This document shows positions 2,996 to 38,895 of a stretch of DNA of 64,000 nucleotides, in pieces. Both the position numbers and the translations under genes were made by a program. The DNA is from Methylobacter marinus A45. GTDB taxonomy: Bacteria; Pseudomonadota; Gammaproteobacteria; Methylococcales; Methylomonadaceae. The notes beneath the pieces were generated by a model. That model searched no databases, was not told where the DNA came from, and was given only the letters and a program-made list of their open reading frames with translations. The stretch lies in NCBI RefSeq assembly GCF_000383855.1, contig NZ_KB912877.1:4649226-4713225 (forward strand). The letters run 5' to 3'. The first letter of the stretch is position 1, and every line of letters starts with the position of its first letter.

Positions 2996-4453
2996 TCACT
3001 GATGGGTTGAGTCGGTTAAACCGAGTTTCTTTTCGCGTTGCTTGTCTTCCGCGCGCTGTTCGTCGACATCTTCGACATCCCAGCCGCGCTCGGCCACCAG
3101 CGCCTGCCGCGATTCCAGCCCTTCCTCTTTCAGAATCTTGGCGGCGTTGGCATCCTGCAACGGGTTGATGTACGGCCAGGCCGGCGCCCGATGGTCGGTG
3201 CGGATATAATCGAAACGCCGGGTCTCGTAACCGGGCGCTTCGACGGCGCCGACCAATACCGCCGCATCGATGAAGGCTTCCCACATCACCCGGCATACCT
3301 GATGAATCGTGAACAGATCCTGGGTCTGCTCGATTTCGCGCCGGTATTGGTTCACAATCGCACGCCAGACGCGGTCGTTGATGCGGCTGTAATCGCCGGT
3401 CGTCAGTTCGTACGGCACATCCTGACCGGCCGCGATCGCCAGTTTCTGCTGCCACTGGAAATCCGCGTAGCCGGCGCCGCCGTCGTCGCCGTCGAACAGC
3501 GTGACATCTTCGCCAGGCAGCAGGCTGGGGAACGAACCCGGCTCCAGATCCAGCATCGGCACGCCGTCATCGTCCAGCCCGATCGGCACGCCCGAGATCG
3601 GGTCGAAGCGGTAGTCGTCGGCGCCGTAATCGGGCCGGCGGATCACGCCGGTGTAGTGCGCACGGGTTTCCTTGCGCCCCAGCTCGGCATCGTCGTATTT
3701 GTCGTACAGATAGGAACGGACGATGGCCTGCACGGCGTCCGGATTGCCGCGCAACTGCCCCGGACGCAGCGGAATAAAGTGATGAATGATTTGCTCGGCC
3801 GGCACCCGGGTCAGCTCGTTATAAGTCCAACCGCCCTTCTCCGCCGGATGCTTTTTGTACATCCAATACGCGACGCGCTTGCCGATGGCATTGAATTCGA
3901 TGCCGGAAACGATATCATTGCCGTTGGGCGCCTTTTCGTTCATGTTGACCGGGCAGAAATCGGCCTCCAGCACCTGAAACTGAACCGGTACCGGCAAACC
4001 GTCTTCAGGCCGGCGCTGACGGATGCGGATGAAGACCTCGCCGGCTTCCTTGCGCCCCCGCACGGCGCTCCACTGGATGCCGTAAGCGTTCAAAATGCCG
4101 TCGGCATCGGCGAACGGCAGCCAATCGTTCCACAAGGTGCGGATGGCTTTGCGGAACGCCTTGTTGCTGGCCTTGGAACGCGGAATGATGCCGGTGCCGG
4201 TCTCGTTGGCGACATCGGCCTTCAGCCCCCGGGACATCCACGGGTTGTTACGCACGCTGGCCCGCATCCGGCGGCGCAGGATAGTCAGCTCCGCCGTCGC
4301 CGCCTGGTTCGGGCTCAGATCCGGTGCATCGAACGAGCCCAGGCGCCGCCCCTGGGCGCTGGCTTCGTAGGCCCGGCTTTCGGCCGCCAACGGCTTGCCG
4401 TCGAGTCCGACGATCAGCGAGACCGGCTTTTTATAGCGCAACATCCGCATCAA
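2996..4453 (-). CDS. Phage portal protein, lambda gpB family
   Basis: 485 residues, the normal length for lambda-type portals. Recognisable parts include the N-terminal RRRMRASVRNNPWMSRGLK, the central GIEFNAIGKRVAYWMYKKHP and the DVPYELTTGDYSRINDRVWR segment that defines the family. It forms the dodecameric DNA entry vertex of the head. Its start overlaps the stop of the gpW gene by 4 bp (ATGA type), showing translational coupling. A long frame on the opposite strand (3038-4456) is a shadow. Confidence 0.92.
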   Translation of the reverse strand: MMRMLRYKKPVSLIVGLDGKPLAAESRAYEASAQGRRLGSFDAPDLSPNQAATAELTILRRRMRASVRNNPWMSRGLKADVANETGTGIIPRSKASNKAFRKAIRTLWNDWLPFADADGILNAYGIQWSAVRGRKEAGEVFIRIRQRRPEDGLPVPVQFQVLEADFCPVNMNEKAPNGNDIVSGIEFNAIGKRVAYWMYKKHPAEKGGWTYNELTRVPAEQIIHHFIPLRPGQLRGNPDAVQAIVRSYLYDKYDDAELGRKETRAHYTGVIRRPDYGADDYRFDPISGVPIGLDDDGVPMLDLEPGSFPSLLPGEDVTLFDGDDGGAGYADFQWQQKLAIAAGQDVPYELTTGDYSRINDRVWRAIVNQYRREIEQTQDLFTIHQVCRVMWEAFIDAAVLVGAVEAPGYETRRFDYIRTDHRAPAWPYINPLQDANAAKILKEEGLESRQALVAERGWDVEDVDEQRAEDKQREKKLGLTDSTHQ

Positions 4454-5321: not shown

Positions 5322-5347
5322 CTTCAACAATGTTCGTAGGGAACCAT

Positions 5348-5367: not shown

Positions 5368-5376
5368 TCAGGCATT

Positions 5377-5522: not shown

Positions 5523-5682
5523 ACCAGTTTGGGAAAATATAGTGGATTTTTGGGCAGGTTGTCAAATGGATTATTGATGGTGAAATTTATTGGATTTTAA
5601 TTCCCTCACTGCACAGCTAGTGCTATTTCTAATTAGCAGCCAAGCTGAATTCCTGGTAAATTTCGATTATCCCCCATTGATC

Positions 5683-7360: not shown

Positions 7361-7479
7361 AATTTTCTCCGTAAACTTGGCTGTATTAATGATTTGTCAA
7401 GTAAACTTTATTGCTAATTTTGCCATTTGTCAAGTAACTCAAATCGACCTTTAACAACTGGGCCGTTCCTCATGGTCAT

Positions 7480-7731: not shown

Positions 7732-7747
7732 TGTGTGAGGAGGAATG

Positions 7748-8176: not shown

Positions 8177-8182
8177 CCTCAC

Positions 8183-8245
8183 ACACAACAATTCGCGCCG
8201 CAGCGGACGGCCCTGACGGGCCGCCGTTGAGCTCAAGCGTTGGAC
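8183..8245 (+). other. attC-like recombination site 1
   Basis: ACACAAC (R''-like, 8183-8189) and GTTGGAC (R'-like, 8239-8245) flank an imperfect inverted repeat whose core is GGCCC-TGAC-GGGCC. The sequence before the second box, GAGCTCAAGCGTTGG, is typical of attC left-prime ends. Crossover is predicted between G8239 and T8240. Confidence 0.65.
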
Positions 8246-8272
8246 CTAACAAAGAGAAATGGAGGAAGTCTG

Positions 8273-9187
8273 ATGGAAGAAAAGCTGCTCAATTGGGAAA
8301 AGCGCCCATTCGTTACGGATGCTGATATGACTCCCTATTTGGCTTGTGACCGCAAAACAGGCACTCTTTACGGCAAGAAGGTTCTTGCTGTGCAGATCGC
8401 GAATATTGATTACAAAATTCGATTCAATAAGTCGGCTAGTTCGCGCAAGATGCAGCCACCGCCTAGCTGTGGGCGAATATTCCTTGGGTATCTCGTCATC
8501 CGTAAGCTTGGAACGCCATTGGAGTATGAGACTTGGATGCCGGAAGACGTTTTTGAAGATCTTTATCGTCCGATGAACATCTCAGCCCAACAGGTCAGTC
8601 AATCAGACTGCCGGAAACCGCCGCCGCTTGAGCTGTCCGCCCAGCGCGGCATCCGATTACCTCAATCGTTAGGGCTCGTCATGACGAAGCATGCGCGTGA
8701 AGTTCTTGAGGATTGCAAAGTAGCGGCCGCCGAGATCAAGGATGGCGTGACCGGCAGAGAGTGGCGTATCAAGTGGGTCGCGGCAGTCGCACTATTACGT
8801 GCGGTCGGACATACGTTGCGCAAAGTGGACGCCTCAAGCGACCAGACTATGGAACAGCTGGTTAGCGAAGCATGGGATAAACTCGTTTCAACAAAGCCAG
8901 AGCCTAAGATCTTCTGGCAGTTCATCGAAGATGAGCGAAACAACATACTGAAGGAATACCGGTTGGGTGCCGGGCAGGGTGTTACGATTAGGCCCGGAAC
9001 GTTGCATGTCAATCTCAAGAATGGTGAGCAGTGGTCAGAACCCGGCGAGCCGACGTTGTTCCACTATAAGATGACAAGCGGCCCATATAAGGGCAGAGAT
9101 CAACGCGATGTTTTGAACGAGGCCATTGATTGGTGGGACGCATATCTCTCGAACTTGGAGCGTCGTTATGCCGAAACGCAGCCCTAA
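8273..9187 (+). CDS. Hypothetical cassette protein
   Basis: 304 residues from ATG 8273, placed 7 nt after a strong GGAGG. An upstream TTG in frame at 8240 lies inside the attC site and is unlikely. The family is not recognised. The N-terminal half looks beta-rich (LYGKKVLAVQIANIDYKIRF). Residues about 135-240 are helical with the segment WQFIEDERNNILKEYRLGAG, a Trp-Arg-Asn helix pattern reminiscent of HEPN-like bundles, but no clear R-x4-H motif is present. The stop codon overlaps the next attC, as is usual for cassettes. Confidence 0.7.
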   Translation: MEEKLLNWEKRPFVTDADMTPYLACDRKTGTLYGKKVLAVQIANIDYKIRFNKSASSRKMQPPPSCGRIFLGYLVIRKLGTPLEYETWMPEDVFEDLYRPMNISAQQVSQSDCRKPPPLELSAQRGIRLPQSLGLVMTKHAREVLEDCKVAAAEIKDGVTGREWRIKWVAAVALLRAVGHTLRKVDASSDQTMEQLVSEAWDKLVSTKPEPKIFWQFIEDERNNILKEYRLGAGQGVTIRPGTLHVNLKNGEQWSEPGEPTLFHYKMTSGPYKGRDQRDVLNEAIDWWDAYLSNLERRYAETQP

Positions 9188-9273
9188 CTTCAGGTTGGAG
9201 CGGGGACGCCGGAAAGGCATGCGGCGCTTCGCGGTCGGGATCAGTGGCGCCGCCGCTTAACCAAGCGTTGGGC
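9182..9273 (+). other. attC-like recombination site 2
   Basis: CCCTAAC (9182-9188) and GTTGGGC (9267-9273) are near-complementary outer boxes around an imperfect dyad rich in GGCGCC-type stretches, 92 bp in all. Crossover is predicted at G9267^T9268. This is the clearest attC in the array. Confidence 0.8.
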
Positions 9274-9364
9274 ATAATAATAACGAGATCTATACGAGCG
9301 ACGGAATTAAGAGAATTAATTCTATAAAAAACATGGCAGTATTTCAGGATTTCCATCAAAGGCA

Positions 9365-9422
9365 CATCAAAGGGGGACTCGATTGATTGCGAGTTAAAAA
9401 TCAATCGAGTCCCCCCTTTGAT
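9365..9422. repeat. REP-like palindrome, copy 1
   Basis: A 23-bp left arm starting ATCAAAGGGGGACTCG pairs almost perfectly with a right arm ending CGAGTCCCCCCTTTGAT around an 11-nt AT-rich centre. A second, more degenerate copy lies at 12153-12213. The AAAGGGG...CCCCTTT outer ends and hairpin shape resemble REP/BIME units mobilised by RAYT (Y1) transposases. That assignment is an inference, and no RAYT gene is present here. Confidence 0.7.
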
Positions 9423-9465
9423 CCGAAATCGAGCTAAATAAATACTAATATAGAGAATAATAACT

Positions 9466-9816
9466 ATGGGTTATAGAGACGACTTTTACCAAGCAAGGAA
9501 TATTATTGGTTACACTGGCGATCACATGTATCGGGATAGGGTGACAGTTTATTTTCAATCAGGCGGAGAGTTCGGGCGAATAACTCAATATTATCCAGAC
9601 GATGAATCTAATGTAGGAAGAAATGAGGTAAGATCTTTTCACGATTATAAAATTTATAATAGTCAAACCGATGGTTGTGCTGTTGAATTTTATAATGGCA
9701 AAGTGCAACATGAAAGTCGCAGCCCCTTTGTAGCCGTTAATGGTAATGAGATTTTGAGATTTGAACTTGCTAAATCCATCTTGGCCCATAAAGATATTAA
9801 GCCTAAGTATAAATAA
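9466..9816 (+). CDS. Hypothetical cassette protein
   Basis: 116 residues, charged and soluble, with no recognised family. Aromatic-rich beta-like stretches are visible (RDRVTVYFQSGGEFGRITQY and GCAVEFYNGKVQHESRSP). The start follows an AT-rich leader with only a weak ribosome site (GAGAATAATAACTATG). It follows attC 2 on the + strand, but no complete attC is seen after it, and 80 bp later the - strand antirepressor module begins. Confidence 0.6.
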   Translation: MGYRDDFYQARNIIGYTGDHMYRDRVTVYFQSGGEFGRITQYYPDDESNVGRNEVRSFHDYKIYNSQTDGCAVEFYNGKVQHESRSPFVAVNGNEILRFELAKSILAHKDIKPKYK

Positions 9817-9897
9817 CAATACCTATTCACTGCTTGTTTTGTGCTTGAATAGCACAAAACAAGCATCACTACGAAAACCGGTTAACGCCGGCGCTTA

Positions 9898-10554
9898 TCA
9901 ACGCCCATACCAGTTTCTGCCTGTAATTCGCTCGAGTTCGTGCACGGCCCTCATGCCGGACTGCATCATCATTTCCATGCACGGAATGCTGGTTGTCACA
10001 TGCCATAGATCGGCGCTATGGATGACAACCAAGTCGCTGTTGGGCAGGCCGATGGAATTGATGAAATCGATCAGGTCTTCGCCTTCAAGTCCTCTGCCCC
10101 GCTCTTGGACGGCTTTAACGATCTGGCCTCTGATGTGGTCGTAATGTTCCAGGTTCAATGCGCGGGCTCGGTTTGCGATCGCTGATTTAACCTCTGCGCT
10201 CAGCGGCATTTCGCCTTCCATAGCTTGCGTGCGGGTATATTGATCCAAAATATCCAGCACCCATTTTCTGAATTTCTTGGCGACTTTGGTGCGGGCGAAC
10301 ATGGCTAGAAGATGACAGCCACGAAGTGAAAATATTCTGACCTGCTGCTTGCCGCCGTTAGTGTCCAGCTCGACCAGGGCGGTCATGCTGTCGGTGAATT
10401 CGTCGGCGTTTGACTTATAGATCTTATCTATCGAAATACGGCCTTTCACATAACCCAAGGCGTCCCCGATCTGGGGTCCCCTTAACCAAGGCTGTCCAGC
10501 GTGATCAATAACGTCAAATTGAATATTATGAAATGATAATGATAATGCGGTCAT
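9898..10554 (-). CDS. BRO-N family phage antirepressor
   Basis: 218 residues. Residues 5-105 match the Bro-N domain (FDVIDHAGQPWLRGPQIGDA, KIYKSNADEFTDSM, RIFSLRGCHLLAMFARTKVA and KFRKWVLDIL). The C-terminal half is helical and unassigned. Such proteins inactivate CI-type repressors or set prophage induction state. The gene lies downstream of a c4-like antisense RNA and an Ash-type small frame, the arrangement known from phage P1/P7 ant and P4-like immunity regions. This makes translational or antisense-RNA control likely. Confidence 0.85.
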   Translation of the reverse strand: MTALSLSFHNIQFDVIDHAGQPWLRGPQIGDALGYVKGRISIDKIYKSNADEFTDSMTALVELDTNGGKQQVRIFSLRGCHLLAMFARTKVAKKFRKWVLDILDQYTRTQAMEGEMPLSAEVKSAIANRARALNLEHYDHIRGQIVKAVQERGRGLEGEDLIDFINSIGLPNSDLVVIHSADLWHVTTSIPCMEMMMQSGMRAVHELERITGRNWYGR

Positions 10555-10584
10555 GATGGGCTCCAGAGATAATAAATGATGTTA

Positions 10585-10616
10585 CTCGGCACCATGAGGC
10601 CAATCATGGTGCCGAG
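10585..10616 (-). promoter_or_regulatory. Hairpin with loop complementary to the c4-like RNA (site b)
   Basis: A perfect 13-bp stem (CTCGGCACCATGA / TCATGGTGCCGAG) has loop TTGGCC on the - strand, 31 nt before the antirepressor start. The loop with its flanking bases, ATTGGCCT, is complementary to AGGCCAA in the c4-like RNA. It is the probable regulatory target near the antirepressor ribosome site. Confidence 0.7.
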
Positions 10617-10680
10617 ACTGAGCAGGTTGGCCTACCGGCTCTCTGGAACCGGCCACCCCGAAGGGTGCCCACTCAGCCCC
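10614..10680 (-). ncRNA. c4-type antisense RNA
   Basis: 67 nt on the - strand fold as a three-way junction. The closing stem GGGGCUGAG/CUCAGUCUC has 9 pairs including G-U, then come a CACCC-UUCG-GGGUG hairpin and a CCGG...CCGG hairpin. The segment AGGCCAA after the last hairpin stays unpaired. It is complementary to the loops of hairpins at 10585-10616 and 10749-10764. This is the layout of the c4 RNA that represses the P1/P7 antirepressor. The call is from structure and complementarity, without a covariance search. Confidence 0.75.
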
Positions 10681-10814
10681 GACATTACAATGAGACTGAA
10701 TTTTGCGCATAAAAAAACCGCGAAATGCGGTTTTCGCCAGAGAATTCCCGGGAGGCCAATCCCGTGCCGCCATTGTGGGCGACGCTTGAAGCATAGCTTG
10801 GATATGTCTGGCAT
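10632..10814 (-). CDS. Ash-family small phage protein (overlaps c4-like RNA)
   Basis: A 60-codon frame ends with FSLIVMSGLSGHPSGWPVPESR-like sequence (seen as SGLSGHPSGWPVP), matching the conserved end of Ash family proteins found upstream of prophage antirepressors and in P4. The frame runs through the terminator hairpin and the c4-like RNA. The peptide conservation may therefore partly reflect RNA conservation. Whether it is translated is uncertain. Confidence 0.5.
   Translation of the reverse strand: MPDISKLCFKRRPQWRHGIGLPGILWRKPHFAVFLCAKFSLIVMSGLSGHPSGWPVPESR
10711..10734 (-). terminator. Intrinsic terminator in antirepressor leader
   Basis: On the - strand AAAACCGCATTTCGCGGTTTTTTT forms a short stem (ACCGC/GCGGT) followed by seven T. 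It lies between complementary hairpin a (10749-10764) and the c4-like RNA. Premature termination here may be part of the antisense control. Confidence 0.7.
10749..10764 (-). promoter_or_regulatory. Hairpin with loop complementary to the c4-like RNA (site a)
   Basis: The stem CGGGA/TCCCG carries the loop TTGGCC, the same loop as the hairpin at 10585-10616. Two sites with identical ATTGGCCT flank the c4-like RNA, as with the paired a/b target boxes of P1 c4. Confidence 0.6.
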
Positions 10815-10993
10815 GTCAATGGCAAGTAAAATCAGGTGAGAGCAAAATCAGATTAAGCTGTATCAATTTTCTCATTTATTCCTGTCTTGAGGAATGGGCA
10901 TAAATACCCATAATTGCCATGCAAATTTATGGTAATTACCGCCTTACCTGCATTCTAGCCACCCCACCCTGGCTCTATCTTTTTCTTAATCGC

Positions 10994-11245
10994 CAGCTTA
11001 ATGTCGCGCTACAGATTGAGCTAATATATAATTATAGAAAAACCCTTAGCCCACTATCTAGAATCTGATGATCAAGGGCAATAAGATCATTGACTGGTTT
11101 TTGGTTGAACGTCGCATTTATTGCCACGATCTGGGGCATTGAGTTCAGGGATAACCATAAAATCAATTAATTACTAATAGACAACTGGAGTTATACGACA
11201 TATGCATCAGGTTATTGGACATTTAATGTCGTATACATCACGTTA
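10994..11245. repeat. 252-bp direct repeat, copy 2
   Basis: Second copy of the segment at 7480-7731. It ends in ATCACG^TTA and again directly precedes a cassette (GTTAGGACTC...). The flank on the left side differs between copies. The region 10815-11290 holds no gene apart from this repeat. Confidence 0.75.
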
Positions 11246-11291
11246 GGACTCTAATTCTTTACCAAGCAATAATGACAAAGGAGACAACGAA

Positions 11292-11576
11292 ATGGCACTG
11301 ATGTCAAAAGGCGATCTTCAATACAGCGACTATAGCTGGACGGCATACGGCAGCGACAACCCGAAGGTTACCAGTGAACCTGACAGCACATTGTTCAACC
11401 GCAAAGAGGGTTACGAGGTGCTTTATCTCATCAACAAGTTCGCCGAGAAGCACGAATTGAAGCAGAAATCATCCGGTCAAAAGGCAGAAAGGATGTTACA
11501 CGACCATTTGCCTAGCGATGTTCGAAGCCAACAGAACGTAATGGCTTGGTTAGCTAACAATTGGAAGCAGCATTAG
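11292..11576 (+). CDS. Hypothetical cassette protein
   Basis: 94 residues, soluble, not recognised. The start follows AAAGGAGACAACGAAATG, a strong ribosome site. The C-terminal two thirds looks helical (EVLYLINKFAEKHELKQ and NVMAWLANNWKQH). The cassette begins with GTTAGGACTC and ends with AGTCCTAAC, an exact complementary pair over nine bases, so its ends fit a circular cassette intermediate. Confidence 0.7.
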   Translation: MALMSKGDLQYSDYSWTAYGSDNPKVTSEPDSTLFNRKEGYEVLYLINKFAEKHELKQKSSGQKAERMLHDHLPSDVRSQQNVMAWLANNWKQH

Positions 11577-11681
11577 TCCTAACGCCCGACTCCAAGAGAC
11601 CTGCAAGAGCGGCGCGAATTATGAGTTTCATTTTTAGTTTCAGTGGGCCGTTCTTGCGGTCGCCTGAGCAAGGCGTTAGGC
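11577..11681 (+). other. attC-like recombination site 3
   Basis: TCCTAAC (11577-11583) and GTTAGGC (11675-11681) bound an imperfect dyad of 105 bp. GAGCAAGGCGTTAGGC is a canonical attC right end. Crossover is predicted at G11675^T11676. Confidence 0.75.
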
Positions 11682-11715
11682 AATATCAATCATTGTTTAG
11701 AGGAGAATAAGAACT

Positions 11716-12132
11716 ATGTGGCCTCGCAATCTCTACACAGGTCCCGGTGGCGGACTTTATACGGGTCCTGGCGGTGGAATGTACACAGGTCCAGACGGTG
11801 GCGCTTATACCGGACCTAACGGAGGCATGTACACCGGTCCCGGCGGAGGTATGTATACAGGGCCAGGAGGCGGACTTTACACTGGGGCAGGGGGTGGACT
11901 CTATACGGGTCCAGGTGGCGGTGCCTATACCGGCCCAGGAGGCGGATTATATACCGGACCTGGTGGTGGTCTTTACACTGGCCCCGGAGGTGGGATGTGT
12001 ACCAGTTCTGATAATCCCGGATACATGAGCAACATTCCTCCGTGGCGAGTATTTGCAAAATATTTGTTTGAAATGGGAATGAGGGATGAAGCGGAGTTCA
12101 TCTTCTCACAACTTGCAAGCATTGGAGCGTAG
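11716..12132 (+). CDS. YTGPGGG tandem-repeat cassette protein
   Basis: 138 residues. After MWPRN there are eleven octapeptide repeats of the form [LMA]YTGPGGG, with single changes such as PDGG, PNGG and GAGGG, and a degenerate twelfth (MCTSSDNP). A 40-residue non-repetitive tail follows (PWRVFAKYLFEMGMRDEAEF). The DNA repeats are 24 bp but differ at synonymous positions, so selection acts on the peptide. There is no signal peptide. The function is unknown. The cassette starts at a good GTTAGGC site, but its own end looks truncated: only GTTAGGC at 12134-12140 remains. Confidence 0.75.
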   Translation: MWPRNLYTGPGGGLYTGPGGGMYTGPDGGAYTGPNGGMYTGPGGGMYTGPGGGLYTGAGGGLYTGPGGGAYTGPGGGLYTGPGGGLYTGPGGGMCTSSDNPGYMSNIPPWRVFAKYLFEMGMRDEAEFIFSQLASIGA

Positions 12133-12152
12133 TGTTAGGCATTCGTCAGAGA

Positions 12153-12213
12153 AATCAAAGGGGTTAGACAAGATTGATCGTGAGTTAAAAATCAATCGAG
12201 TCTGCCCCTTTGT
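12153..12213. repeat. REP-like palindrome, copy 2 (degenerate)
   Basis: Same element as 9365-9422. The right arm (ATCAATCGAGTCTGCCCCTTTG) is conserved, while the left arm has several changes that weaken the stem. It separates the cassette array from the MBL operon. Confidence 0.65.
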
Positions 12214-12302
12214 TCACATTAGATTTTTGCCCAGAGACGGAGGTAGTAGTAGAATGAAACGTTTGATATGTTGCAAATAAAATTTATGGCATTTAAACGA
12301 CT

Positions 12303-12998
12303 ATGAATCATTGGGAAATCCTCAACGAGGAAGCGAGCATCGTTTTAGTTGGCAACATGAACCCTAAGATATTTCATCCAGAATGGTTCATTCGCAAAGA
12401 AATTGTTGCAGAATGGGACTATAGTAAGGATGAAATAATTAGTTTGCCAGATATGTCCCAAATGGATGTGCTAAATGGATGCAAGATATCAGTATTATTA
12501 AATAAGTTCTCAATGCGCTCGTCTCTAGAAAGTGAATATCTTTCTATGAGAGATTTGGTGATTCATACATTTTCCTTATTGAGCGAAACCCCGATATTGC
12601 AGATGGGCATGAACTTTAGATCTATCATTAAGATAGCTAATGAAGATAAATGGATGCATTTCGGCAGCGTACTAGCGCCTCAAAAATATTGGAAACAAGC
12701 TGCAAATTTCATAGATATGCTTGATGAAGATAGCCAAAAAGAGCTTGGTCTTTGGGAATTGGCCATGAATTTACCTAGGCCAGACAATTTAGAAGGATAC
12801 GTTCGACCTAAAATAGCTGTATTTCCTCAAGCTGGGCCCTATACATTAGAGTTTAACATTAATAATCATGTTGAAATTACGGATGCAAGTGCGGCTACGA
12901 TGATCGAAATACTAAAAGAGAATTGGGATAAATCTCTGGATTTAGCAAAAGAACTAACAAACAATATTATGGAATCACAATTAGGTGGTGTGAAATGA
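12303..12998 (+). CDS. Unknown protein, first gene of MBL three-gene operon
   Basis: 231 residues. The segments ASIVLVGNMNPKIFHPEWFI, LRD-type LSMRDLVIHTFSLLSETPIL and GMNFRSIIKIANEDKWMHFG resemble an uncharacterised family of about 230 residues that occurs with a small barrel-like protein and an MBL hydrolase. No catalytic motif or membrane segment is seen. Its stop overlaps the next start by 4 bp. AT-rich codon use differs from the phage core. A defence role is plausible from context only. Confidence 0.65.
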   Translation: MNHWEILNEEASIVLVGNMNPKIFHPEWFIRKEIVAEWDYSKDEIISLPDMSQMDVLNGCKISVLLNKFSMRSSLESEYLSMRDLVIHTFSLLSETPILQMGMNFRSIIKIANEDKWMHFGSVLAPQKYWKQAANFIDMLDEDSQKELGLWELAMNLPRPDNLEGYVRPKIAVFPQAGPYTLEFNINNHVEITDASAATMIEILKENWDKSLDLAKELTNNIMESQLGGVK

Positions 12999-13507
12999 GT
13001 ACGGCTATAGCTATCTCGCCAATGGAGAATACTGCGAATATTCAAGAATATGCTCATGAATATGGAGAAAACAAGTATAGATATGGAAAAACTGGCACTG
13101 ACTTTTTGTCCACTAAAGAACCTGAGATTCGTCCATGTAGTCCTAAATTTCTTACCCCAGTTCTTGATCTTAATCGACCAAGGGAAGATATTAAGCAACG
13201 ATGGAGCGGCAAAGTTATAAGTGCGACTGATCAGGAGCTTACCGTACGATTGGAAGATTTAACAAATCGTGATAATCCTGATGAACTTATAGTCTTATCT
13301 AGAGATGAAATTGATGATAAGGATCAATCTCTGGTCAAACCAGGTGCGCTATTCTATTGGTATATAGGTTATAGACAAGGATTTAAATACAGTAAAGAGA
13401 GAATTTCAATTATTCGTTTTCGTCGCTTGCCATCTTGGACGACTAAAGAGATTCAAGAATCTGAAAAATTGGCTGAGGAGTACGCTAATTTTTTTCTCAC
13501 CGATTAA
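12995..13507 (+). CDS. Unknown protein, second gene of MBL three-gene operon
   Basis: 170 residues. Residues about 68-125 (WSGKVISATDQELTVRLEDL, then VLSRDEI and GALFYWYIGYR) look like a small beta barrel. A conserved-looking C-terminal GFKYSKERISIIRFRRLP follows. There is no signal or membrane segment. It is coupled to the first gene by ATGA overlap and overlaps the start of the MBL gene by about 20 bp. Confidence 0.65.
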   Translation: MSTAIAISPMENTANIQEYAHEYGENKYRYGKTGTDFLSTKEPEIRPCSPKFLTPVLDLNRPREDIKQRWSGKVISATDQELTVRLEDLTNRDNPDELIVLSRDEIDDKDQSLVKPGALFYWYIGYRQGFKYSKERISIIRFRRLPSWTTKEIQESEKLAEEYANFFLTD

Positions 13508-14591
13508 TTGTACTTCGCCCAATGCGGATATTGCTGAAATATCTCTTTTTGGTCCAGGTATTGGTGAATGCGTTGTTCTTCATTTTGGACAAGGCAAATG
13601 GTTTGTTATTGACAGCTGTCTTTGCCCTAGAAGCAAACAACCAATAGCACTCGAATATTTGTGCTCCATTGGCGTTGATGTGAGTCAACAAGTTGTTGGT
13701 ATTCTCATAACACATTGGCATCTGGATCATATTGAGGGTGCATCAAAGTTATTGAAGGCTTGTTCAAATGCAAAATTGTATTTATCAGGCGCTCTATTCA
13801 CTAGAGAAGCTCTACAGATAGCAAGTTTGTATAAGAAAGATGTTTTTGCCGAGACAGATAAAGATATTCGTGAATTCGGCGAAATTATTCAATTTCTTCA
13901 TGAAACAGAAGACAGAAACCGCATAGTGCCAGTTAAAACAAGGCATACTTTCTTTGACTATAGAGAAACCATTCCAACTCGCTTGATTGCCCTTTCCCCT
14001 AGCGATGTCGCAGTAACCCAGTCAATTTCTAAATTAGCTCAATTTGCAAAAAAGCCAGGTGATCAACGTATCCGGACTGTTGTTCCCGAAAGTGAAAATC
14101 TTAATGCTGTAGCAGTTCATTTTTCTTTTGGGAGTTTTTCAGCATTAGTAGGTTCCGATTTGGAAGAAACGGGCAATGTGCAAACAGGTTGGTCTGCTAT
14201 TTTTGAAGATAATATTATCAATGAATTGAGTTTATCTGCTTCTTCGCTATTTAAAGTTCCTCACCACGGCAGCGAAACAGGACATCATGATAGAATTTGG
14301 GAAGATTTATTAATAGAAAAACCGCTCTCAATGACAACACCATTTTCGCGTTGTGATTTACCAACACCAAAAAATATTGAGAGGCTGAAGCAATTATCTT
14401 CAAATTTGTTAATTGCCCGTGATCCACGAGCAAGAAACAGAATTAAACGAGACAACATGGTGGAGCGGGAGTTACGATCTATAGCGATAGCAAGAAAAAG
14501 CATAAACGATAAAATGGGACATATCCGAGTGCGTGTTTCGGATAAGGGAGCGTTTGATATTTCGGTAAATCAAAATGTCGTTAAATTTTAA
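13488..14591 (+). CDS. MBL-fold metallo-hydrolase with probable ATT start
   Basis: The MBL fold begins with EISLFGPGIGECVVLHFGQG, well upstream of the first ATG (13659). That ATG lies inside the domain just before the metal motif THWHLDH (about 13710-13730). The only initiation signal in frame is ATT at 13488, 7 nt after GAGGAG; ATT at 13503 is an alternative. The start is otherwise coupled to the stop of gene 2. A later KVPHHGSETGHHD motif gives further metal ligands, as in ComEC/Rec2-like and defence-associated hydrolases. About 367 residues. The substrate is unknown. Confidence 0.75.
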   Translation: MFFSPINCTSPNADIAEISLFGPGIGECVVLHFGQGKWFVIDSCLCPRSKQPIALEYLCSIGVDVSQQVVGILITHWHLDHIEGASKLLKACSNAKLYLSGALFTREALQIASLYKKDVFAETDKDIREFGEIIQFLHETEDRNRIVPVKTRHTFFDYRETIPTRLIALSPSDVAVTQSISKLAQFAKKPGDQRIRTVVPESENLNAVAVHFSFGSFSALVGSDLEETGNVQTGWSAIFEDNIINELSLSASSLFKVPHHGSETGHHDRIWEDLLIEKPLSMTTPFSRCDLPTPKNIERLKQLSSNLLIARDPRARNRIKRDNMVERELRSIAIARKSINDKMGHIRVRVSDKGAFDISVNQNVVKF

Positions 14592-14641
14592 GGATATCCT
14601 GAATGGGCATCTTCCCCTAGGAAAACGAATGGCGTTGTTTG

Positions 14642-15022
14642 TTACGGAAGACCTCTACAATGGCATAGTCGCAAGAATTTGTAGAGATATCCCCGGCGAT
14701 CACGGTAATTCATCTCCGTGATCGCCAGTAAGCTAACTCGCCGCTCAAGCGGACGCAAGAAAGGAGCTGCACATATGCAGATGCGGATTTTGGCATCGTT
14801 TAACGCGACCAGTTCTTCCAATTCATCAGATACTCGCCCAGTGCGCCGTGCGGCTACAAGCCGAGAGGCAGCGTTGATGAAATCTGTATAAGCCTTAAGC
14901 CGCATTTCAACCAGCCCAGCATGACGTTTTCGTGTAATCGAAAAAAAGTGGCTAAGAATTGCAACTAGTAATGCGCTTAGAAGAGAAAGGGTTGAAGCAA
15001 TAGCGACTGCAGTGACTGACAT
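14642..15022 (-). CDS. Small membrane-anchored helical protein (cassette-like)
   Basis: 126 residues from the chosen ATG, opening with a hydrophobic segment (about 3-28) followed by RKRHAGLVEMRLKAYTDFINA. This layout of an N-terminal anchor and cytoplasmic helical bundle is common among integron cassette proteins. The frame extends to 15118, but the extra 32 residues look like translated intergenic sequence. No good ribosome site precedes either start. Confidence 0.5.
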   Translation of the reverse strand: MSVTAVAIASTLSLLSALLVAILSHFFSITRKRHAGLVEMRLKAYTDFINAASRLVAARRTGRVSDELEELVALNDAKIRICICAAPFLRPLERRVSLLAITEMNYRDRRGYLYKFLRLCHCRGLP

Positions 15023-15120
15023 AAAGGAAACAAGTGTTATTATTGTTTTAGTTGTAGTAGGGCCGTAGGCTGGGTTGGAGCATCGCGGGAACCCAGCAGA
15101 TTGCGGGCAAAAGGCCATGT

Positions 15121-15771
15121 CTAGCGTTTAGCTTGAACCGCGGCTTGCTCTGGAGCGCAGCGAAAGGGTAAGCCGTCAGATTCAAAGCGGTTGTTGCCGA
15201 TACGCTGGTAACTTTCAAAGTGTTTCATCAACTCTATTGCTGTGTTTGCATAATTCAATGCTTGTTCTTCTGAGATAGAAAGCATTGACTCCTGCTCATG
15301 CGCAATCTTATTTCTTAGAATACGCATTTCATGGAGTAATTTCTCATGTGTCTTTGATAAGCGCCCATTTCGTGCCAACATGTCAATGTTATGCATTGGC
15401 GAGCGGTATGACGGCGAATCTGGTGAAATAGCAAGCCGAGAAACAGCGGAAGCGATAGCAGTTTCCAGGCCGGACCATGCTAATAGAATTGCCGCCGACG
15501 GTGCTCGTTCTACAGCGTCCAATATTTGGTCTTCTAGGGAACTAAGTGCTGGACTTTCTAGCGCGGGCTTTTCTTTTAGCTCTTCAAGTTGGAGTTCTTC
15601 CGCATGTTGTTTTACTTTATCGAAGTCCAGTTCAAAATCCTTATACTTTAAATGAGCGAGACGCTGAACAATCTTTGCCAACTCGCTCTTGAATACGAAC
15701 AGGAACGTAATGGCAACCGCTGGCCAAGCGATGCTAGAAACTACGCCTACAACAAATTGTTTCCAATCCAT
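15121..15771 (-). CDS. Membrane-anchored HEPN-like protein (cassette)
   Basis: 216 residues. A membrane segment lies at about 6-28, followed by LKYKDFELDFDKVKQHAEEL. The helical C-terminal domain has the motif RNKIAH (R-x4-H form) near residue 153, typical of HEPN and DUF4145-like domains, many of which are RNases in conflict systems. The start has an upstream AAGGAA and lies 26 bp after an attC-like site read on the - strand. HEPN membership rests on the motif and helical context and needs a profile search. Confidence 0.65.
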   Translation of the reverse strand: MDWKQFVVGVVSSIAWPAVAITFLFVFKSELAKIVQRLAHLKYKDFELDFDKVKQHAEELQLEELKEKPALESPALSSLEDQILDAVERAPSAAILLAWSGLETAIASAVSRLAISPDSPSYRSPMHNIDMLARNGRLSKTHEKLLHEMRILRNKIAHEQESMLSISEEQALNYANTAIELMKHFESYQRIGNNRFESDGLPFRCAPEQAAVQAKR

Positions 15772-15796
15772 GATTTCCTTTGCTTGTTTATGTAAT

Positions 15797-15876
15797 AGAT
15801 AACGCTGAGCGCACCAGTGGCATTTTTGCAGCGAAGCGTAAAAAGGCCATCCACGACGTATCGCGTTTTGTTAAGT
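15797..15876 (-). other. attC-like recombination site 4 (minus-strand orientation)
   Basis: On the - strand ACTTAAC (15870-15876) and GTTATCT (15797-15803) bound an 80-bp imperfect dyad. The stop codon of the preceding gene lies inside the first box. The orientation is opposite to the sites at 8183-11681, so cassettes face both ways in this cargo region. Confidence 0.6.
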
Positions 15877-16452
15877 ATTTGGAGGATAATAAGGAACCGC
15901 TTTACTAGCATCATCTGTCCAGCGACTGCTGATGTTATACTCTCGACAAACTTTGTGTGCAGCTGCACCACAGAGTCTTAAAGTTTTATGCAAGTTTCCA
16001 GAACGGGCGTTTGAATTAACACCATCATGAGGACGCCACCCGCAAAAATGAATCTTATCCGCTTCTTCAACGTCCCGACTCAGTACCGCAACCTCAGTCA
16101 TTGTTGGAGTATTATTCGCATTAGCAGTCATTGGGATAGCTAGACTGAACTCATCAAAGAAGACATTAGGACGAAAAGGGTTGTTAGGGTCGTATTCTAA
16201 ATTTAACGCATCAACTAAAGCTCGATAGTTATCACCCAGATACGTTGCAATCTCATATCGGTCATTAACTTCTAAAACTAAGAATAATTGGTGGGCAATA
16301 CAGCCAAATAAGAGGATATGAGGGAAGTTTTCGGCAATATAAACAACAGAAAATTCCAAGTTCCTAAAATTAAAAACGAATCTGTTTTTTATGATGCCTT
16401 GAGCATTCATGTCCTGATGCAGCGACTCAAGACGGTTTAACCGCATTGCCAT
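15871..16452 (-). CDS. DUF6037-like cassette protein
   Basis: 193 residues. LESLHQDMNAQGIIKNRFVF, LFGCIAHQLF, ATYLGDNYRAL and YDPNNPFRPNVFFDEF resemble DUF6037-type proteins, which I recall as frequent in integrons and islands. The function is unknown. The C-terminal 60 residues are basic with several Cys and His. The gene ends within an attC-like site. It is the first cargo gene after the large terminase (219 bp gap). Confidence 0.6.
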   Translation of the reverse strand: MAMRLNRLESLHQDMNAQGIIKNRFVFNFRNLEFSVVYIAENFPHILLFGCIAHQLFLVLEVNDRYEIATYLGDNYRALVDALNLEYDPNNPFRPNVFFDEFSLAIPMTANANNTPTMTEVAVLSRDVEEADKIHFCGWRPHDGVNSNARSGNLHKTLRLCGAAAHKVCREYNISSRWTDDASKAVPYYPPNT

Positions 16453-16670
16453 ACTCTCTCCGTGTTAAATTGATTTGCCTAATAAGTGATTCTCTAGATC
16501 TGCATATCTTACACACTGGACCACAGCATCAAAACAATTTTTCCGAAAACATTGTCGTTCTAAACGGGATAACCTACGTAATTTTCACGAAACAGCCCCG
16601 GATAACTTCAATACTAATATGTACAGCTGACTTACCCAAGCGATTCAGCAACTGGCCGCTATACGGTTAA

Positions 16671-19600
16671 TCACCGCCTCACCCGCATCCTGGCCGCCCT
16701 CACCCTGACTTCCGCTTTTTTCTCCGTATCCGAGCCAACCGCCGCGGCCATTCCGGAATCGCCGTGATAAACCTCGCTGTTCTCGTCCCATTCGGCGGCC
16801 CATAGCGGCGGATGGTTCCAGTCGATTTCCTTTTGCCAGTGGTTTTGCAGTTTGACCAGGTAGGCGGCGTGGTCGTAGCACAGCAGGTCAAAGGATTCGT
16901 TGCGCGCGCCGCTGGGCTTGTTCCACCCATCATCGGTGCGATTTTCGGCGACCAGCTCCTCATAAAAGGCATTGCTGAACCAGTTGGGGAAGTGGATGTA
17001 GTTCTGGCCAGCCTCGATGCGGTTGAGGTTGGCGCTAATGAGGTCCTTGATCAGCGTGGTGTTGACCAGCCATAGCGGCAGTTCGCCGACGACTTTGGCC
17101 TTGCGCGCGGCCTTGCTGGAGGCATCCGGATGGGTCAGCGTGATTTTCGGCTTGTTGGCGGTGCGCTTGGGCCGTTCGCCTTTGACCAGGATAAACCGGC
17201 GGTCCAGTTGCTTTTTCTTCATTTCGCGCCAGAAGGTGTAGGCCCGTTCGGCGACGCCTTCTTCGCCGCCGGAGTCGCTGGCGGTGATCAGGATGCCCAT
17301 AGTGCGACCGGAACCGTCAGCCAAGGGGTAACGCTTACGGATGACTTTGCTTTCCAGCAGCAGCCAGTCTTCGATGTAGCCGGCCGGGTCGATCGTCAGG
17401 GGTTCGCCGCCCGCCTCTCTATTGGACAGTGTGATGGCGAAGCGGTCGATCAGCCAGATTTCGTTATGGACGCCGTGGCCGTGGACCTGGACCTCGAAGC
17501 GATTTTTCTGGATGTCGACGGTGGCGATCAGGAAGCGCACGCCTTTACAGACTTCGCGCTTGGGCAGGTCCTCGGCCCGGCGCTCGTAGTCGGCGGCGCT
17601 GACGTCGGAGGTCATGCGCTTGGGCAAATAGGGGGCGCCAAAATTGACGTTAATGATGGTTTTCAGGTTTTCTTCCGATCGGGTGATGTCATATTCCCGG
17701 TAGGCTTTTAAGTATTTTTCGACCAGGCTGTCGGGCTCCGAGTAGGCGGCTAGAATCCCCGGGAACCAGAACGAGGCGATCCGGCTTTTAAGGCCTTCCC
17801 CCACTATCCTGCCGTTTTCGATCGCGCATCCTTCCGGCACCCATAGTCCGGTTTTGTTCATGTTGCGTTTGTGGTGCAAATCGATCAGGCAGCCGTTGGC
17901 GGTACACTGATATCTGACCGGCACGGTTATCTCTGTTAAGGTGGCACCGAATAAATCGCGATCATGGGCGAAGCTCAGGCCTCTCTCGTCGGGCGGCGGC
18001 ATGAAATATTCGCCGCATTCGGGGCATTGCACGTACCAGCGCCGCATGTCGCCCATGTTGAACAGCGACAAGGCCCCTCCGCACGGCGGCGCCTCATGTC
18101 TGTAGTGGCTTTTGTGTTTGGGATCGGTGATTTCGAAGCCGGGCGAGGTTTCCACCAGCGTCATACCGCGGCTTAGAAATTTGGCGGTCCGTTGTTGGGC
18201 CAGTGCGAACGGTGAGCCTTCGCCATCGATGTTTTGCGTCATTCGGTCGTAGTCCGTAATCAGCACGTATTTGAGCGGCTTGCCGGATATTTCGTTAATC
18301 GAGGGCCAGCGTTGAAACAGGATGGCGCCGGACTTGAACACTTTGTCGTAGGTATTGTCGCTTTTGCTGCCTGGCGCTAATTCTTGCTTCAGATCGGGGC
18401 TATCGCGGAATGCGCGCTTGATGACTTGAGTGTCGAAATCGCGCGCCGTCCCTTTGGTCGTCTGCATGATCAGAAAGTCTGCCGGATCGCATTTGATCAC
18501 ATAAGCCATGAAGTTGGTTATCAGGCCCTGCGTATTGTGCGTGGGTATCATGCCTTTTCCGGCTAAAAACAGATGCGATTCGTTTTTGACGCGTATACAT
18601 TTGACCGGAACCGATGCTGTCTTTTCGATGTTAGTGATTCTGCGGCGCTTGTTTTCCGCAATTCGATTACCCGCCAAATTTTCTGGCCTGAGCAGAGCGC
18701 GTTTTCTTGTCAGCTTGAATACTGGAAAGTTATCGTAAACATGGAAGTCAATAGTCCAGGAGGGTTTGCCTTTTTTGGCCTGTCCTTTGGAATAAGCAAA
18801 GGTTTGCCTATTTCTGATCCTCGCTTTTATGCCGAACGTCATCAACAGCTCGTAAACGCCGTCAATCAGAGCTTTTTCAACACTGGTATAGGAACATGAA
18901 CCGCTGGACTTACAGCAGGTGCCATCACTATCCATGAGACCCTGAAGAAGGGCGAGTCGTTGGTCATATGATGCTCTGAGATAATTGTTCGGAATGTGTT
19001 TTGCACATCCATCGTCTATTAATACGCCAAGTTTCCTGAGTCGCGTAGACAATCCGTTATGCTTGTTGACAGCCTCATCAGACTTGATGCCGTGATTTCG
19101 ATGCCGCCTATTTTGTGCATTACACTTCAAACAATGCCCCATTGATGTTGTACCAACAACCCGCTTATCATGCCCCCGGAAACAAATATCACCTTCGAGC
19201 GGCTTTCTATCGATTATTAGACGATATAGATTTTCTCGCCGTTTGTCCGCTGTTATTTCGACTACATGCCCTGCCTGTTCGATGTGTTTTATTAGTTCTA
19301 AATCATGCGTTGTAATTCTGCTATGATTCGAATCGCTATCACCCAGCCATAAGCCCAATACATAGGGGTCAACCGGTAATTCTTTATCTGGAAATTGGAG
19401 TGGACGGCTGTTTTCTACAGCAAATAACCGCCTGGATCCATGCGCGAATCGCGTGGCCATATCTTGCGTTTCGAGCGTGATGTTAGCTGACATTTTTAAT
19501 GTGCCATCCCGATTGAACTGGGTAACGGTCCAAAGGTGTTCGGCGTCGGCAATTATGCTTTCACCGTCCGAAAACGTTATACGGTAACAGTCATGCCCAA

Positions 19601-19961
19601 GCATGGGTAAAGTCACAAAATCGACTTCTGCCGGGTTGCCGTCATTGCCTATCACAATATCGCCGACTGCTACGTCTCCCATTGTTGTCCAACCGCTTGG
19701 AGTTGGGATAGGAGTATCAAGCGATAATGCCTTACCGGATTGCGCCGGACCGACAAAGATGACCGCGTCATAATGCCGGCTGTTCAGGCAATTCATCGGC
19801 TCGATCATGTAGGGCGTCAGCTCCGGTTTCCACTTATCAACGCCGCCGCTCGCCGTCCGCACGTTAACGTAGCGTTCGGCGGCATCGGTGACGGAGATGC
19901 GCTCCCGCGGGCGCACCAGCTTGGCTATGCCGCGCCGGATACCCGCTGCCGCCATGCTCAT
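16671..19961 (-). CDS. Phage terminase large subunit (GpA family), intein-containing
   Basis: 1096 residues, of which 78-476 are an intein; the spliced protein would be 697 residues, close to the GpA norm. The host P-loop GPAQSGK-TQ is split exactly between Lys77 and Thr477. Later parts show GpA features: a zinc-ribbon-like VQCPECGEYFMPPP region, and the nuclease-domain segments GVRFLIATVDIQKNRFEVQV and ILITASDSGGEEGV. It packages DNA with the Nu1-like small subunit, whose gene overlaps its start by 4 bp. Without splicing the ATPase should be inactive. Confidence 0.93.
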   Translation of the reverse strand: MSMAAAGIRRGIAKLVRPRERISVTDAAERYVNVRTASGGVDKWKPELTPYMIEPMNCLNSRHYDAVIFVGPAQSGKALSLDTPIPTPSGWTTMGDVAVGDIVIGNDGNPAEVDFVTLPMLGHDCYRITFSDGESIIADAEHLWTVTQFNRDGTLKMSANITLETQDMATRFAHGSRRLFAVENSRPLQFPDKELPVDPYVLGLWLGDSDSNHSRITTHDLELIKHIEQAGHVVEITADKRRENLYRLIIDRKPLEGDICFRGHDKRVVGTTSMGHCLKCNAQNRRHRNHGIKSDEAVNKHNGLSTRLRKLGVLIDDGCAKHIPNNYLRASYDQRLALLQGLMDSDGTCCKSSGSCSYTSVEKALIDGVYELLMTFGIKARIRNRQTFAYSKGQAKKGKPSWTIDFHVYDNFPVFKLTRKRALLRPENLAGNRIAENKRRRITNIEKTASVPVKCIRVKNESHLFLAGKGMIPTHNTQGLITNFMAYVIKCDPADFLIMQTTKGTARDFDTQVIKRAFRDSPDLKQELAPGSKSDNTYDKVFKSGAILFQRWPSINEISGKPLKYVLITDYDRMTQNIDGEGSPFALAQQRTAKFLSRGMTLVETSPGFEITDPKHKSHYRHEAPPCGGALSLFNMGDMRRWYVQCPECGEYFMPPPDERGLSFAHDRDLFGATLTEITVPVRYQCTANGCLIDLHHKRNMNKTGLWVPEGCAIENGRIVGEGLKSRIASFWFPGILAAYSEPDSLVEKYLKAYREYDITRSEENLKTIINVNFGAPYLPKRMTSDVSAADYERRAEDLPKREVCKGVRFLIATVDIQKNRFEVQVHGHGVHNEIWLIDRFAITLSNREAGGEPLTIDPAGYIEDWLLLESKVIRKRYPLADGSGRTMGILITASDSGGEEGVAERAYTFWREMKKKQLDRRFILVKGERPKRTANKPKITLTHPDASSKAARKAKVVGELPLWLVNTTLIKDLISANLNRIEAGQNYIHFPNWFSNAFYEELVAENRTDDGWNKPSGARNESFDLLCYDHAAYLVKLQNHWQKEIDWNHPPLWAAEWDENSEVYHGDSGMAAAVGSDTEKKAEVRVRAARMRVRR
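18534..19730 (-). other. Class 3 intein with LAGLIDADG endonuclease in TerL Walker A motif
   Basis: 399 residues, starting ALSLDTPIPTPSGW and ending GMIPTHN before Thr+1. There is no N-terminal Cys/Ser. It has the class 3 triad instead: Trp two residues after the block B His (AEHLW), Cys at block F position 4 (VPVKCIRV) and Thr in block G (PTHN). Endonuclease blocks are PYVLGLWLGDSDS and LLQGLMDSDGTC. Between them lies a C-x3-H...C-x2-C segment (CFRGHDK, HCLKCNA) that looks zinc-binding. All splicing residues are intact, so it is probably active. Confidence 0.92.
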
Positions 19962-20449
19962 TCCAGTTCCTCCAGCAAATCAGCCCATTGCTCCCTGAGA
20001 GCGTCGATCCTGGATTCGATGCTTTCGATGATTTCTGGCTCCAGGCGGTAGTCGCGTTCGAGGATGTCGGGCAGGGTTTCCAGCACTTGCAGGCCTGATT
20101 TGGCAATCAACGCCATCTGTTCGCGAGACTCGTTCGCATAAACGGATACGCCGGATTCCCGCTCAAACTTGATCCTGTCGTTTTCGGATTTGAACCAATC
20201 CGCGCGCTCCTTCGGCGACATTCGGTCCGGATCGTTATGCACAGCGCCATCGGACAACTGCGGCAATAAAATTGCCTTGGCCGCTTGGCCAACACTGTAA
20301 ACAGGGTGACCTCTACGTTCTCCGGATGGATTCACGTTCGCATCGCGCAGCCGGCGCTGCACAGTCTCCCGAGCAATGCCGAACTCCCGGGACAGCTGGT
20401 TTAAAGACCAGCTAAACCAGTCATTGATTGATGCAACTTCAGTCGCCAT
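19958..20449 (-). CDS. Terminase small subunit (DUF1441, Nu1-like)
   Basis: 163 residues from MATEVASINDWFSWSLNQ; the frame is open 20 codons further upstream, but that part is hydrophobic and unlike the family. The N-terminal winged-helix region has LSREFGIARETVQRRLRDAN and GERRGHPVYSVGQAAKAIL; the C-terminus is a long helix for assembly. It binds the packaging site and recruits the large subunit. It overlaps terL by 4 bp. Confidence 0.85.
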   Translation of the reverse strand: MATEVASINDWFSWSLNQLSREFGIARETVQRRLRDANVNPSGERRGHPVYSVGQAAKAILLPQLSDGAVHNDPDRMSPKERADWFKSENDRIKFERESGVSVYANESREQMALIAKSGLQVLETLPDILERDYRLEPEIIESIESRIDALREQWADLLEELE

Positions 20450-20543
20450 ACCAAAACAAAAAATCAACAAATTTACACATAATAACAACAACTTAGGAAA
20501 TAATGGCATGACATACGTTGAGACCCATGGAACCCCAAAAACT

Positions 20544-37451: not shown

Positions 37452-37730
37452 ATGACAAACTACGTAACAATCAGAAAATTTAGCGAGTTAACAGGTTACT
37501 CGGAAGATGCGATTCGGCATAAGATAAAGGATGGCACTTGGTTAGAGAATAGTGTCTGGGTAAAGGCCGCCGATGGCCGCATTTTAATCAGTATCAACGG
37601 GTATGAAACATGGGTAGAGATGGGAATGGCGTCAAAGCAGCGTCAGCAACAACGATTGAAATCACGTTCACGTACAAAGGAATCAGGTGCAGAGAGCGCA
37701 TTAAACTTAAGCCCACTGCCCCTAACTTAG
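37452..37730 (+). CDS. xis: Phage excisionase
   Basis: 92 residues. YVTIRKFSELTGYSEDAIRH, KIKDGTWLENSVWVKAADGR and ISINGYETWVE are typical of Xis winged-helix proteins next to integrases. The last 121 bp overlap the integrase frame, coupling expression. The C-terminal 30 residues are basic. Confidence 0.8.
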   Translation: MTNYVTIRKFSELTGYSEDAIRHKIKDGTWLENSVWVKAADGRILISINGYETWVEMGMASKQRQQQRLKSRSRTKESGAESALNLSPLPLT

Positions 37731-38749
37731 CAAAAGCCGAGCGGCATCGTGCCGCCGTGCTACATGCCATTGCCAATGACACGTTCGATTATGAAGTCAC
37801 CTTCCCTGGCAGCAAAAACATCGCCAAGTTTACCGACAAGCCGCAACTGACTGTTGAAAAATATTTGAATGAATGGCTTGCCGGTAAACAGCCTCAAATT
37901 AAGTCATCGACATACAACGATTACGTCAAAACGATTCGCATCATTAATGAGCAGTTCGGCGCCATGCAGCTTGTTGAGCTTAAGCGCAAGCCGATCGCGG
38001 AATGGGCCAGCAGTTTGGGTTGTAGTAATAAACGAATATCAAACCTTATCAGTCCATTGCGTGCAGCGCTAACAGATGCCGTGCATCATGAGCTGATTGA
38101 TATCAATCCGATTGCCGGCTGGACCTATAAAAAATCCATGCCGCCCAAATCATCAGATGTTGAGCCATTCACCAAAGATGAGCAGGAGTTAATTCTGGCC
38201 AACCTGGTCGGGCAGGGAAAAAATATAATTCAGTTTGCCTTCTGGACAGGCCTTCGGACATCTGAATTGATCGAATTGGAATGGGGTGATATCGATTGGG
38301 TTAGGAGCATCGTTAGAGTTGAACGGGCCAAGACACAATATGCCAACCAGGCTGAGACAACCAAGACCAAATCTGGCGAGCGTGACGTGAAATTATTACC
38401 TCCTGCCCTTGCCGCTTTGACGGCACAGAAAGCGTTTACGTTTCTTCAGGACGGCAAAGTATTCCATAATCCAAGAACGGGAGAGCCCTGGACAGGCGAT
38501 CAGCCGCTCAGAAAAACGCTATGGATACCGGCATTAAAGAAAGCCGGGATTCGCTATCGTCGGCCCTATCAGACCCGACATACATTCGCATCAATGATGC
38601 TGAGCGCCGGCGAACCATTGGCATGGGTGTCAAAACAATTGGGGCATTCTAATGTGCTAATGACGGCCAAAGTTTATGCTACCTGGATTCCGGATAGTCA
38701 ACCAGAGGCTGGATTAAAAGCCGTGCAATTATTTGGAAAGACAGGCTAA
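37610..38749 (+). CDS. int: Tyrosine integrase
   Basis: 379 residues. The N-terminal arm-binding domain (DUF3596 type: TIEITFTYKGIRCRERIKLK) is followed by a core-binding domain and catalytic domain. Arg in FWTGLRTSELIELEW, Arg/His in YQTRHTFAS, LGHSN and the nucleophile Tyr in AKVYATWI are all present. It inserts the phage at the adjacent tmRNA 3' end. Confidence 0.93.
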   Translation: MGRDGNGVKAASATTIEITFTYKGIRCRERIKLKPTAPNLAKAERHRAAVLHAIANDTFDYEVTFPGSKNIAKFTDKPQLTVEKYLNEWLAGKQPQIKSSTYNDYVKTIRIINEQFGAMQLVELKRKPIAEWASSLGCSNKRISNLISPLRAALTDAVHHELIDINPIAGWTYKKSMPPKSSDVEPFTKDEQELILANLVGQGKNIIQFAFWTGLRTSELIELEWGDIDWVRSIVRVERAKTQYANQAETTKTKSGERDVKLLPPALAALTAQKAFTFLQDGKVFHNPRTGEPWTGDQPLRKTLWIPALKKAGIRYRRPYQTRHTFASMMLSAGEPLAWVSKQLGHSNVLMTAKVYATWIPDSQPEAGLKAVQLFGKTG

Positions 38750-38860
38750 AAATGTTGGCTTTAATGTTGTCATTCAGCGCCAACAAATGCCAATTAATGC
38801 CAATATAAAGGATGTTTTTTGAAATTGAAGCCCCGAAAATCAGGGCTATCAAGGGTGAAT

Positions 38861-38895
38861 TGGTGGAGGCGGCGGGAATTGAACCCGCGTCCGCA
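38861..38895. other. Probable prophage attachment site at tmRNA 3' end
   Basis: The acceptor and T-arm end of the tmRNA gene (complement of TGGTGGAGGCGGCGGGAA) lies 111 bp past the integrase stop. tmRNA 3' ends are a favoured target of this integrase class. The exact core needs the matching copy at the other prophage end, which is outside the window. Confidence 0.6.

Follow-up and report, generated by a model that had tools for sequence, protein, structure and literature searches.

The 64,000-nucleotide stretch of Methylobacter marinus A45 DNA analyzed here (the window; contig NZ_KB912877.1, positions 4,649,226 to 4,713,225) carries on its minus strand an open reading frame (ORF; positions 16671-19961 of the window) that encodes 1096 amino acids and contains no internal stop. 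We read this ORF as a large terminase of the lambda GpA family that is interrupted, without a scar, between the Lys and the Thr of GPAQSGK-T in its ATP-binding loop (Walker A) by a full-length class 3 intein that includes a LAGLIDADG homing endonuclease, the whole lying in an apparently complete prophage integrated at the transfer-messenger RNA (tmRNA) gene; we put the probability of this reading, including the mechanism described below, at about 92%. The kind of element is ordinary and well known, and the terminase is one more packaging enzyme, here of the GpA family, whose ATP-binding loop is interrupted by a class 3 intein. The intein adds one member to a large known class and is modestly new through an internal zinc-ribbon-like insert and a GpA-specific lineage.

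Class 3 intein in the Walker A loop of a GpA-family terminase

An initial annotation of this DNA, which gave no strand and proved correct on almost all points, had placed the insert at 18534..19730, splitting GPAQSGK-T. These limits are exact: the insert comprises 399 codons, starts with Ala (19728-19730), ends with Asn (18534-18536), and lies between Lys77 and the Thr codon at 18531-18533, with all features of the ORF and the insert on the minus strand (Table 1). Once the insert is removed, the ATPase and nuclease domains of a GpA-family large terminase surround an intact Walker A loop. Pfam finds the GpA ATPase (PF05876, E = 2.1e-56) in two stretches, the better of which starts right behind the insert at profile position 41; it also finds the GpA nuclease (PF20454, E = 5.4e-63) in the same ORF.

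Class 3 inteins, whose chemistry is less common than that of other inteins, are defined by Trp at B:12, Cys at F:4, and Thr at G:5 (PMC5222942 and PMC5050341; here and below, sources with PMC numbers are cited from excerpts). Trp67, Cys378, and Thr397 are in register with the solved inteins 6bs8 and 6rix and with 101 aligned inteins, so that the alignment keeps the triad in the expected places. Position 1 is Ala, with Ser, Thr, and Cys absent there; His65 stands at B:10, the C-terminal end is His398-Asn399, and the +1 residue after Asn399 is Thr. At E = 6.9e-33, the alignment with a solved class 3 intein, in which the triad is in register, lies far beyond chance, and a chance triad was set aside on this ground. 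A structure prediction, which had been proposed as a check, gave a confident model of the full-length fold. The nearest solved relatives, the DnaB class 3 inteins of Mycobacterium smegmatis (6bs8, 6own) and M. chimaera (6rix, 6riy), are 46-51% identical to the window intein in the splicing domain by structure alignment and have in common with it the registered triad, Ala1, and the THN end, but they are helicase mini-inteins lacking an endonuclease, whereas the window intein interrupts a terminase and includes a LAGLIDADG endonuclease. In two relatives (L040 and L014), Asn replaces the Trp of block B, with the Cys of block F and the Thr of block G retained.

The splicing chemistry of class 3 inteins is established (PMC5222942, PMC7664689). 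By analogy, the precursor would be translated whole and without a working P-loop; Cys378, activated by His65, would attack the Lys-Ala bond, and the N-extein would be transferred onto the side chain of the +1 Thr. Cyclization of Asn399 would then release the intein, and an acyl shift would restore an intact GPAQSGKT. Because the insert occupies the P-loop site, packaging ATPase activity would require splicing.

The position is a classic one, since mycobacteriophage TerL1-a inteins also sit between the P-loop Lys and Thr; in mycobacteriophages, inteins have been reported from the TerL1 and TerL6 families and from the terminase-like protein Pham3880 (PMC5050341). P-loop inteins of phage large terminases (TerL), including TerL1-a (PMC5050341) and those of phages B23 and ECD7, share the Lys/Thr site, the class 3 residues, and LAGLIDADG with the window intein but interrupt terminase families other than GpA. 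A full-text search of the available literature collection returned no paper on inteins at the gpA terminase Walker A.

Endonuclease, uninterrupted relatives, and alternative readings

The LAGLIDADG domain claimed initially is matched by LAGLIDADG_3 (PF14528, E = 1.9e-12), and both of its motifs are present with their catalytic acids, Asp131 and Asp267; Asp269 and Lys244 are also kept. In the nearest terminases that span the site (L134 to L137; C-exteins 60% identical), GPAQSGKT is uninterrupted. Among 80 IMG/VR terminases ranked by C-extein likeness, 77 have no interruption, 1 belongs to the window's own prophage, and 2 start downstream of the site; because of this ranking, the proportion is not a rate over all GpA terminases, and there are intein-carrying GpA genes whose exteins are less similar. 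Compared as DNA, L136, the closest empty allele, agrees at 78 of the 90 bases that precede the junction and at 46 of the 60 that follow it. The G+C content is 46% in the intein versus 58-63% in the exteins, and 45% versus 75-79% at third codon positions. The empty site in relatives, the DNA-level match, and the deviant G+C content support a recent, precise insertion, and the empty relatives, the base composition, and the two LAGLIDADG aspartates likewise favor, as far as sequence can, the earlier description of the intein as a mobile element. The freed intein would cut the P-loop codons of terminase genes that lack it, and repair would copy it in; the precise set of uninterrupted relatives makes homing testable.

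A point against present-day homing is residue 132, immediately after the first catalytic aspartate, which is Ser here (1 of 101 aligned inteins) and Gly in 98 of the 101. Such a substitution would fit a class 3 intein with working splicing and a dead endonuclease, left with vertical descent only, and so would the searches for further copies: there is no second copy in the genome and none at high identity in the collections, the close relatives in IMG/VR amounting to one identical contig that is the own prophage and those in the genome contig collection to none that was confirmed. Intein matches occur in 6 of 369 genomes of the class (E ≤ 0.001) and terminase matches in 9 of 61 related genomes, own genome included in both counts and the other eight terminases at 26-33% identity; these searches for relatives show rarity and little more. 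We consider a dead endonuclease unlikely, though worth keeping in mind, as the frame is open, the four residues named above (both LAGLIDADG aspartates, Asp269, and Lys244) are kept, the full-length fold is confidently predicted, and a recent arrival is indicated by the foreign base composition and the empty relatives.

A doubtful proposal is that splicing is conditional, with thiol oxidation or zinc at Cys378 keeping the terminase inactive and making packaging stress-responsive. Class 3 DnaB inteins have been reported to be sensitive to redox state and zinc (PMC6195587, PMC7360933, PMC8557812), Cys378 is the equivalent nucleophile, and the same protein holds more cysteines. However, terminase is made late in lytic growth, the benefit would be speculative, and the window sequence is silent on it. 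Very improbable, and with nothing found in its favor, is a non-splicing insertion or a decayed, cleaving-only intein that leaves a broken terminase and a dead prophage: all splicing residues are kept in an open frame, the exteins are intact with the GpA ATPase and nuclease, and the prophage has kept its small terminase, portal, protease, major head protein, tape measure, integrase, and both attachment (att) repeats. Finally, the general Hint fold is shared with classes 1 and 2, but the possibility that an intein of one of those classes was mistaken for class 3 can be practically discounted, given Ala instead of Cys, Ser, or Thr at position 1, Thr rather than Cys at +1, the triad in place, and nearest solved relatives of class 3.

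Zinc-ribbon-like insert and a proposed GpA intein lineage

Between the LAGLIDADG motifs of the window intein, about 50 extra residues carry Cys183, His187, Cys200, and Cys203. The C-x3-H/C-x2-C insert noted at first is thus confirmed residue by residue, and the same ligand set recurs in 12 further class 3 inteins. The strict motif C-x2-G-H...C-x2-C occurs in 13 of the 101 aligned inteins (the window's and 12 IMG/VR loci); C-x3-H and C-x2-C are kept together in these 13, a set picked by that motif, and beyond the motif itself the Arg of C-x-R-G-H is found in 12 of them. Eleven of the 13 ribbon hosts are GpA terminases by Pfam or C-extein match, and two (L059 and L067) belong to the other TerL family. 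The ribbon is present in 11 of 26 GpA inteins (one of the GpA labels, that of L054, was given by site motif and tree place, without a C-extein match) versus 2 of 75 others (Fisher P = 3e-6, a value that ignores relatedness and indicates clustering only) and absent from all 20 phage and plasmid inteins read closely.

As to its identity, seven of the 13 ribbons match the PHROGs family phrog_826 (HNH endonuclease; best E = 2.9e-6), the window's ribbon not among them, and three match phrog_1492 (HNH endonuclease); the window's ribbon weakly matches two PHROGs families of unknown function (E of about 0.04). In Pfam, it matched no family, and all 13 ribbons gave only scattered single-member matches; a profile search of the PDB returned four matches (E = 0.19 to 0.92), none significant, and tblastn against phages returned one record (E = 2), a hypothetical protein. 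A ribbon profile matched 96 of 274 genomes at E ≤ 0.1, which we take as background, because the best match besides the own one has an E value of 3.2e-4 and many hold stops. The only real lead from these sequence comparisons is phrog_826. The ribbon would bind zinc and add DNA contacts, and it is probably a module for DNA recognition that comes and goes inside one lineage. If it binds zinc and DNA, it would show intein endonucleases gaining target specificity via modules from other phage endonucleases. A literature search, with most subscription papers outside its reach, returned no paper describing a phage intein with such a ribbon.

At E ≤ 0.01, matches to the intein turned up in 784 of 50,697 phage records, and in 490 of these the match spans 80% or more of its length; close reading covered 20 phage and plasmid inteins. 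In the IMG/VR set, 78 of 80 loci were counted, L094 and L096 being dropped for stops in the matched stretch; 50 of the 78 in-frame inteins follow Lys, and the +1 residue is Thr or Ser in all 50. The dropped loci have 9 and 13 stops, respectively, in the starting frame of that stretch, which suggests breaks in the intein frame. A quick tree built without the ribbon columns, and leaving out the mini-intein L044 as well as L014, places 24 of 25 GpA inteins in one group (Shimodaira-Hasegawa-like approximate likelihood ratio test [SH-aLRT], 91), with that of Acidovorax phage ACF1 outside on a long branch. This tree requires at least five changes of the ribbon, and support is weak for many of its inner branches (40 of 93 open). 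We tentatively propose, at somewhat less than even odds, that GpA P-loops host a class 3 lineage of their own whose endonucleases took up an HNH-type zinc ribbon, combining a splicing intein with a zinc-based DNA-reading module, at least partly independently of yeast HO/WHO. With the ribbon, homing may shift to new targets, which could explain why this module appears and disappears within the GpA lineage.

HO/WHO, as described in the excerpts of PMC7282813, also joins an intein-related LAGLIDADG endonuclease to Cys-based zinc motifs, but it has C-terminal fingers, no exteins, no block G, and no splicing, whereas the window intein has a single ribbon inside the endonuclease, exteins, block G, and all splicing residues. 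PI-SceI (VDE), a class 1 intein with 20% identity to the window's, lacks a zinc ribbon (PMC7282813). Closer in host and site are the inteins of ACF1 (L021), Marinobacter plasmid phiTHAF39 (L044), and the IMG/VR loci L051, L065, and L083, which share the GpA family and the Lys-Thr site, together with that of the GpA-family IMG/VR locus L117, whose site is one residue off owing to the tblastn boundary; only L051 among these six has the ribbon. The GpA hosts of ACF1 and phiTHAF39 are full-length; among phage records, only ACF1 matches over 80% or more of the entire precursor. The ACF1 intein (L021:460-1512) starts with Cys and keeps the Trp, the block F Cys, and the Thr, giving two possible first nucleophiles, and has no ribbon. 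phiTHAF39 (L044:3199-3618) carries a 140-residue class 3 mini-intein without an endonuclease at the same GpA site, APAQSAK-T. In Endozoicomonas plasmid CP092490.1 (L022:4743-6155), QVGG precedes the intein, and the terminase frame stops 18 codons past it while the C-extein match continues.

Prophage and host

The prophage named in the initial annotation was recovered with its integrase, structural genes, and flanking att repeats, the two identical 33-bp repeats bounding about 53.4 kb. The window also holds maturation protease and decoration genes, and the major head protein, tape measure, and tail fiber genes lie to the left of it.

Table 1. Positions of the intein, its host gene, and prophage landmarks in the window
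Feature	Position	Strand	Basis
N-extein of GpA terminase, 77 amino acids, Walker A end GPAQSGK	19731..19961	-	Sequence, Pfam
Class 3 intein with LAGLIDADG homing endonuclease, 399 amino acids	18534..19730	-	Pfam, alignments
C-extein, 620 amino acids plus stop, from +1 Thr; rest of GpA ATPase (PF05876 positions 41-247) and GpA nuclease (PF20454)	16671..18533	-	
Block B His65-Leu66-Trp67 (B:10, B:12) in AEHLW	19530..19538	-	Alignment
Block F Cys378 (F:4) in VKCIRV, expected first nucleophile	18597..18599	-	Cys in 101/101 aligned inteins
Block G Thr397-His398-Asn399 (G:5 to G:7) in PTHN	18534..18542	-	Alignment
First LAGLIDADG motif LGLWLGD, residues 125-131	19338..19358	-	
Second LAGLIDADG motif LLQGLMD, residues 261-267	18930..18950	-	
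Zinc-ribbon-like insert, Cys183/His187/Cys200/Cys203, between LAGLIDADG motifs	19122..19184	-	Sequence, alignment
Terminase small subunit, directly upstream of terminase	19958..20509	-	phrog_141, E = 2.2e-39
Portal protein, same prophage	2996..4453	-	phrog_21, E = 4.7e-91
Prophage integrase, adjoins tmRNA gene	37610..38749	+	phrog_1, E = 1e-65
Right 33-bp att repeat, 3' end of tmRNA gene	38857..38889	+	Identical copy at G000:C1:4634679-4634711

Some 12 kb with genes on both strands (4454-16670) separate the terminase from the portal gene, which are neighbors in the relatives L036, L037, L038, and L044. This region encodes anti-repressor-like and repressor-like proteins, the latter with a metalloprotease match, as well as Bro-N, a weak HEPN-like match, DUF6037, and other regulators and unknowns.

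The methanotroph host assumed at the outset agrees with two AMO/PmoA family members (PF02461) in the genome, absent from 14 control genomes, although PF02461 includes ammonia monooxygenase as well. The genome holds one more LAGLIDADG intein (L129; G000:C1:3609903-3610193), which starts with Cys, ends in HN followed by C, and is class 1-like; its host frame, named from sequence, appears to be a vitamin B12-type ribonucleotide reductase. In another methanotroph, a ribonucleotide reductase intein and an intein in a Mu-like prophage have been described (PMC517821).
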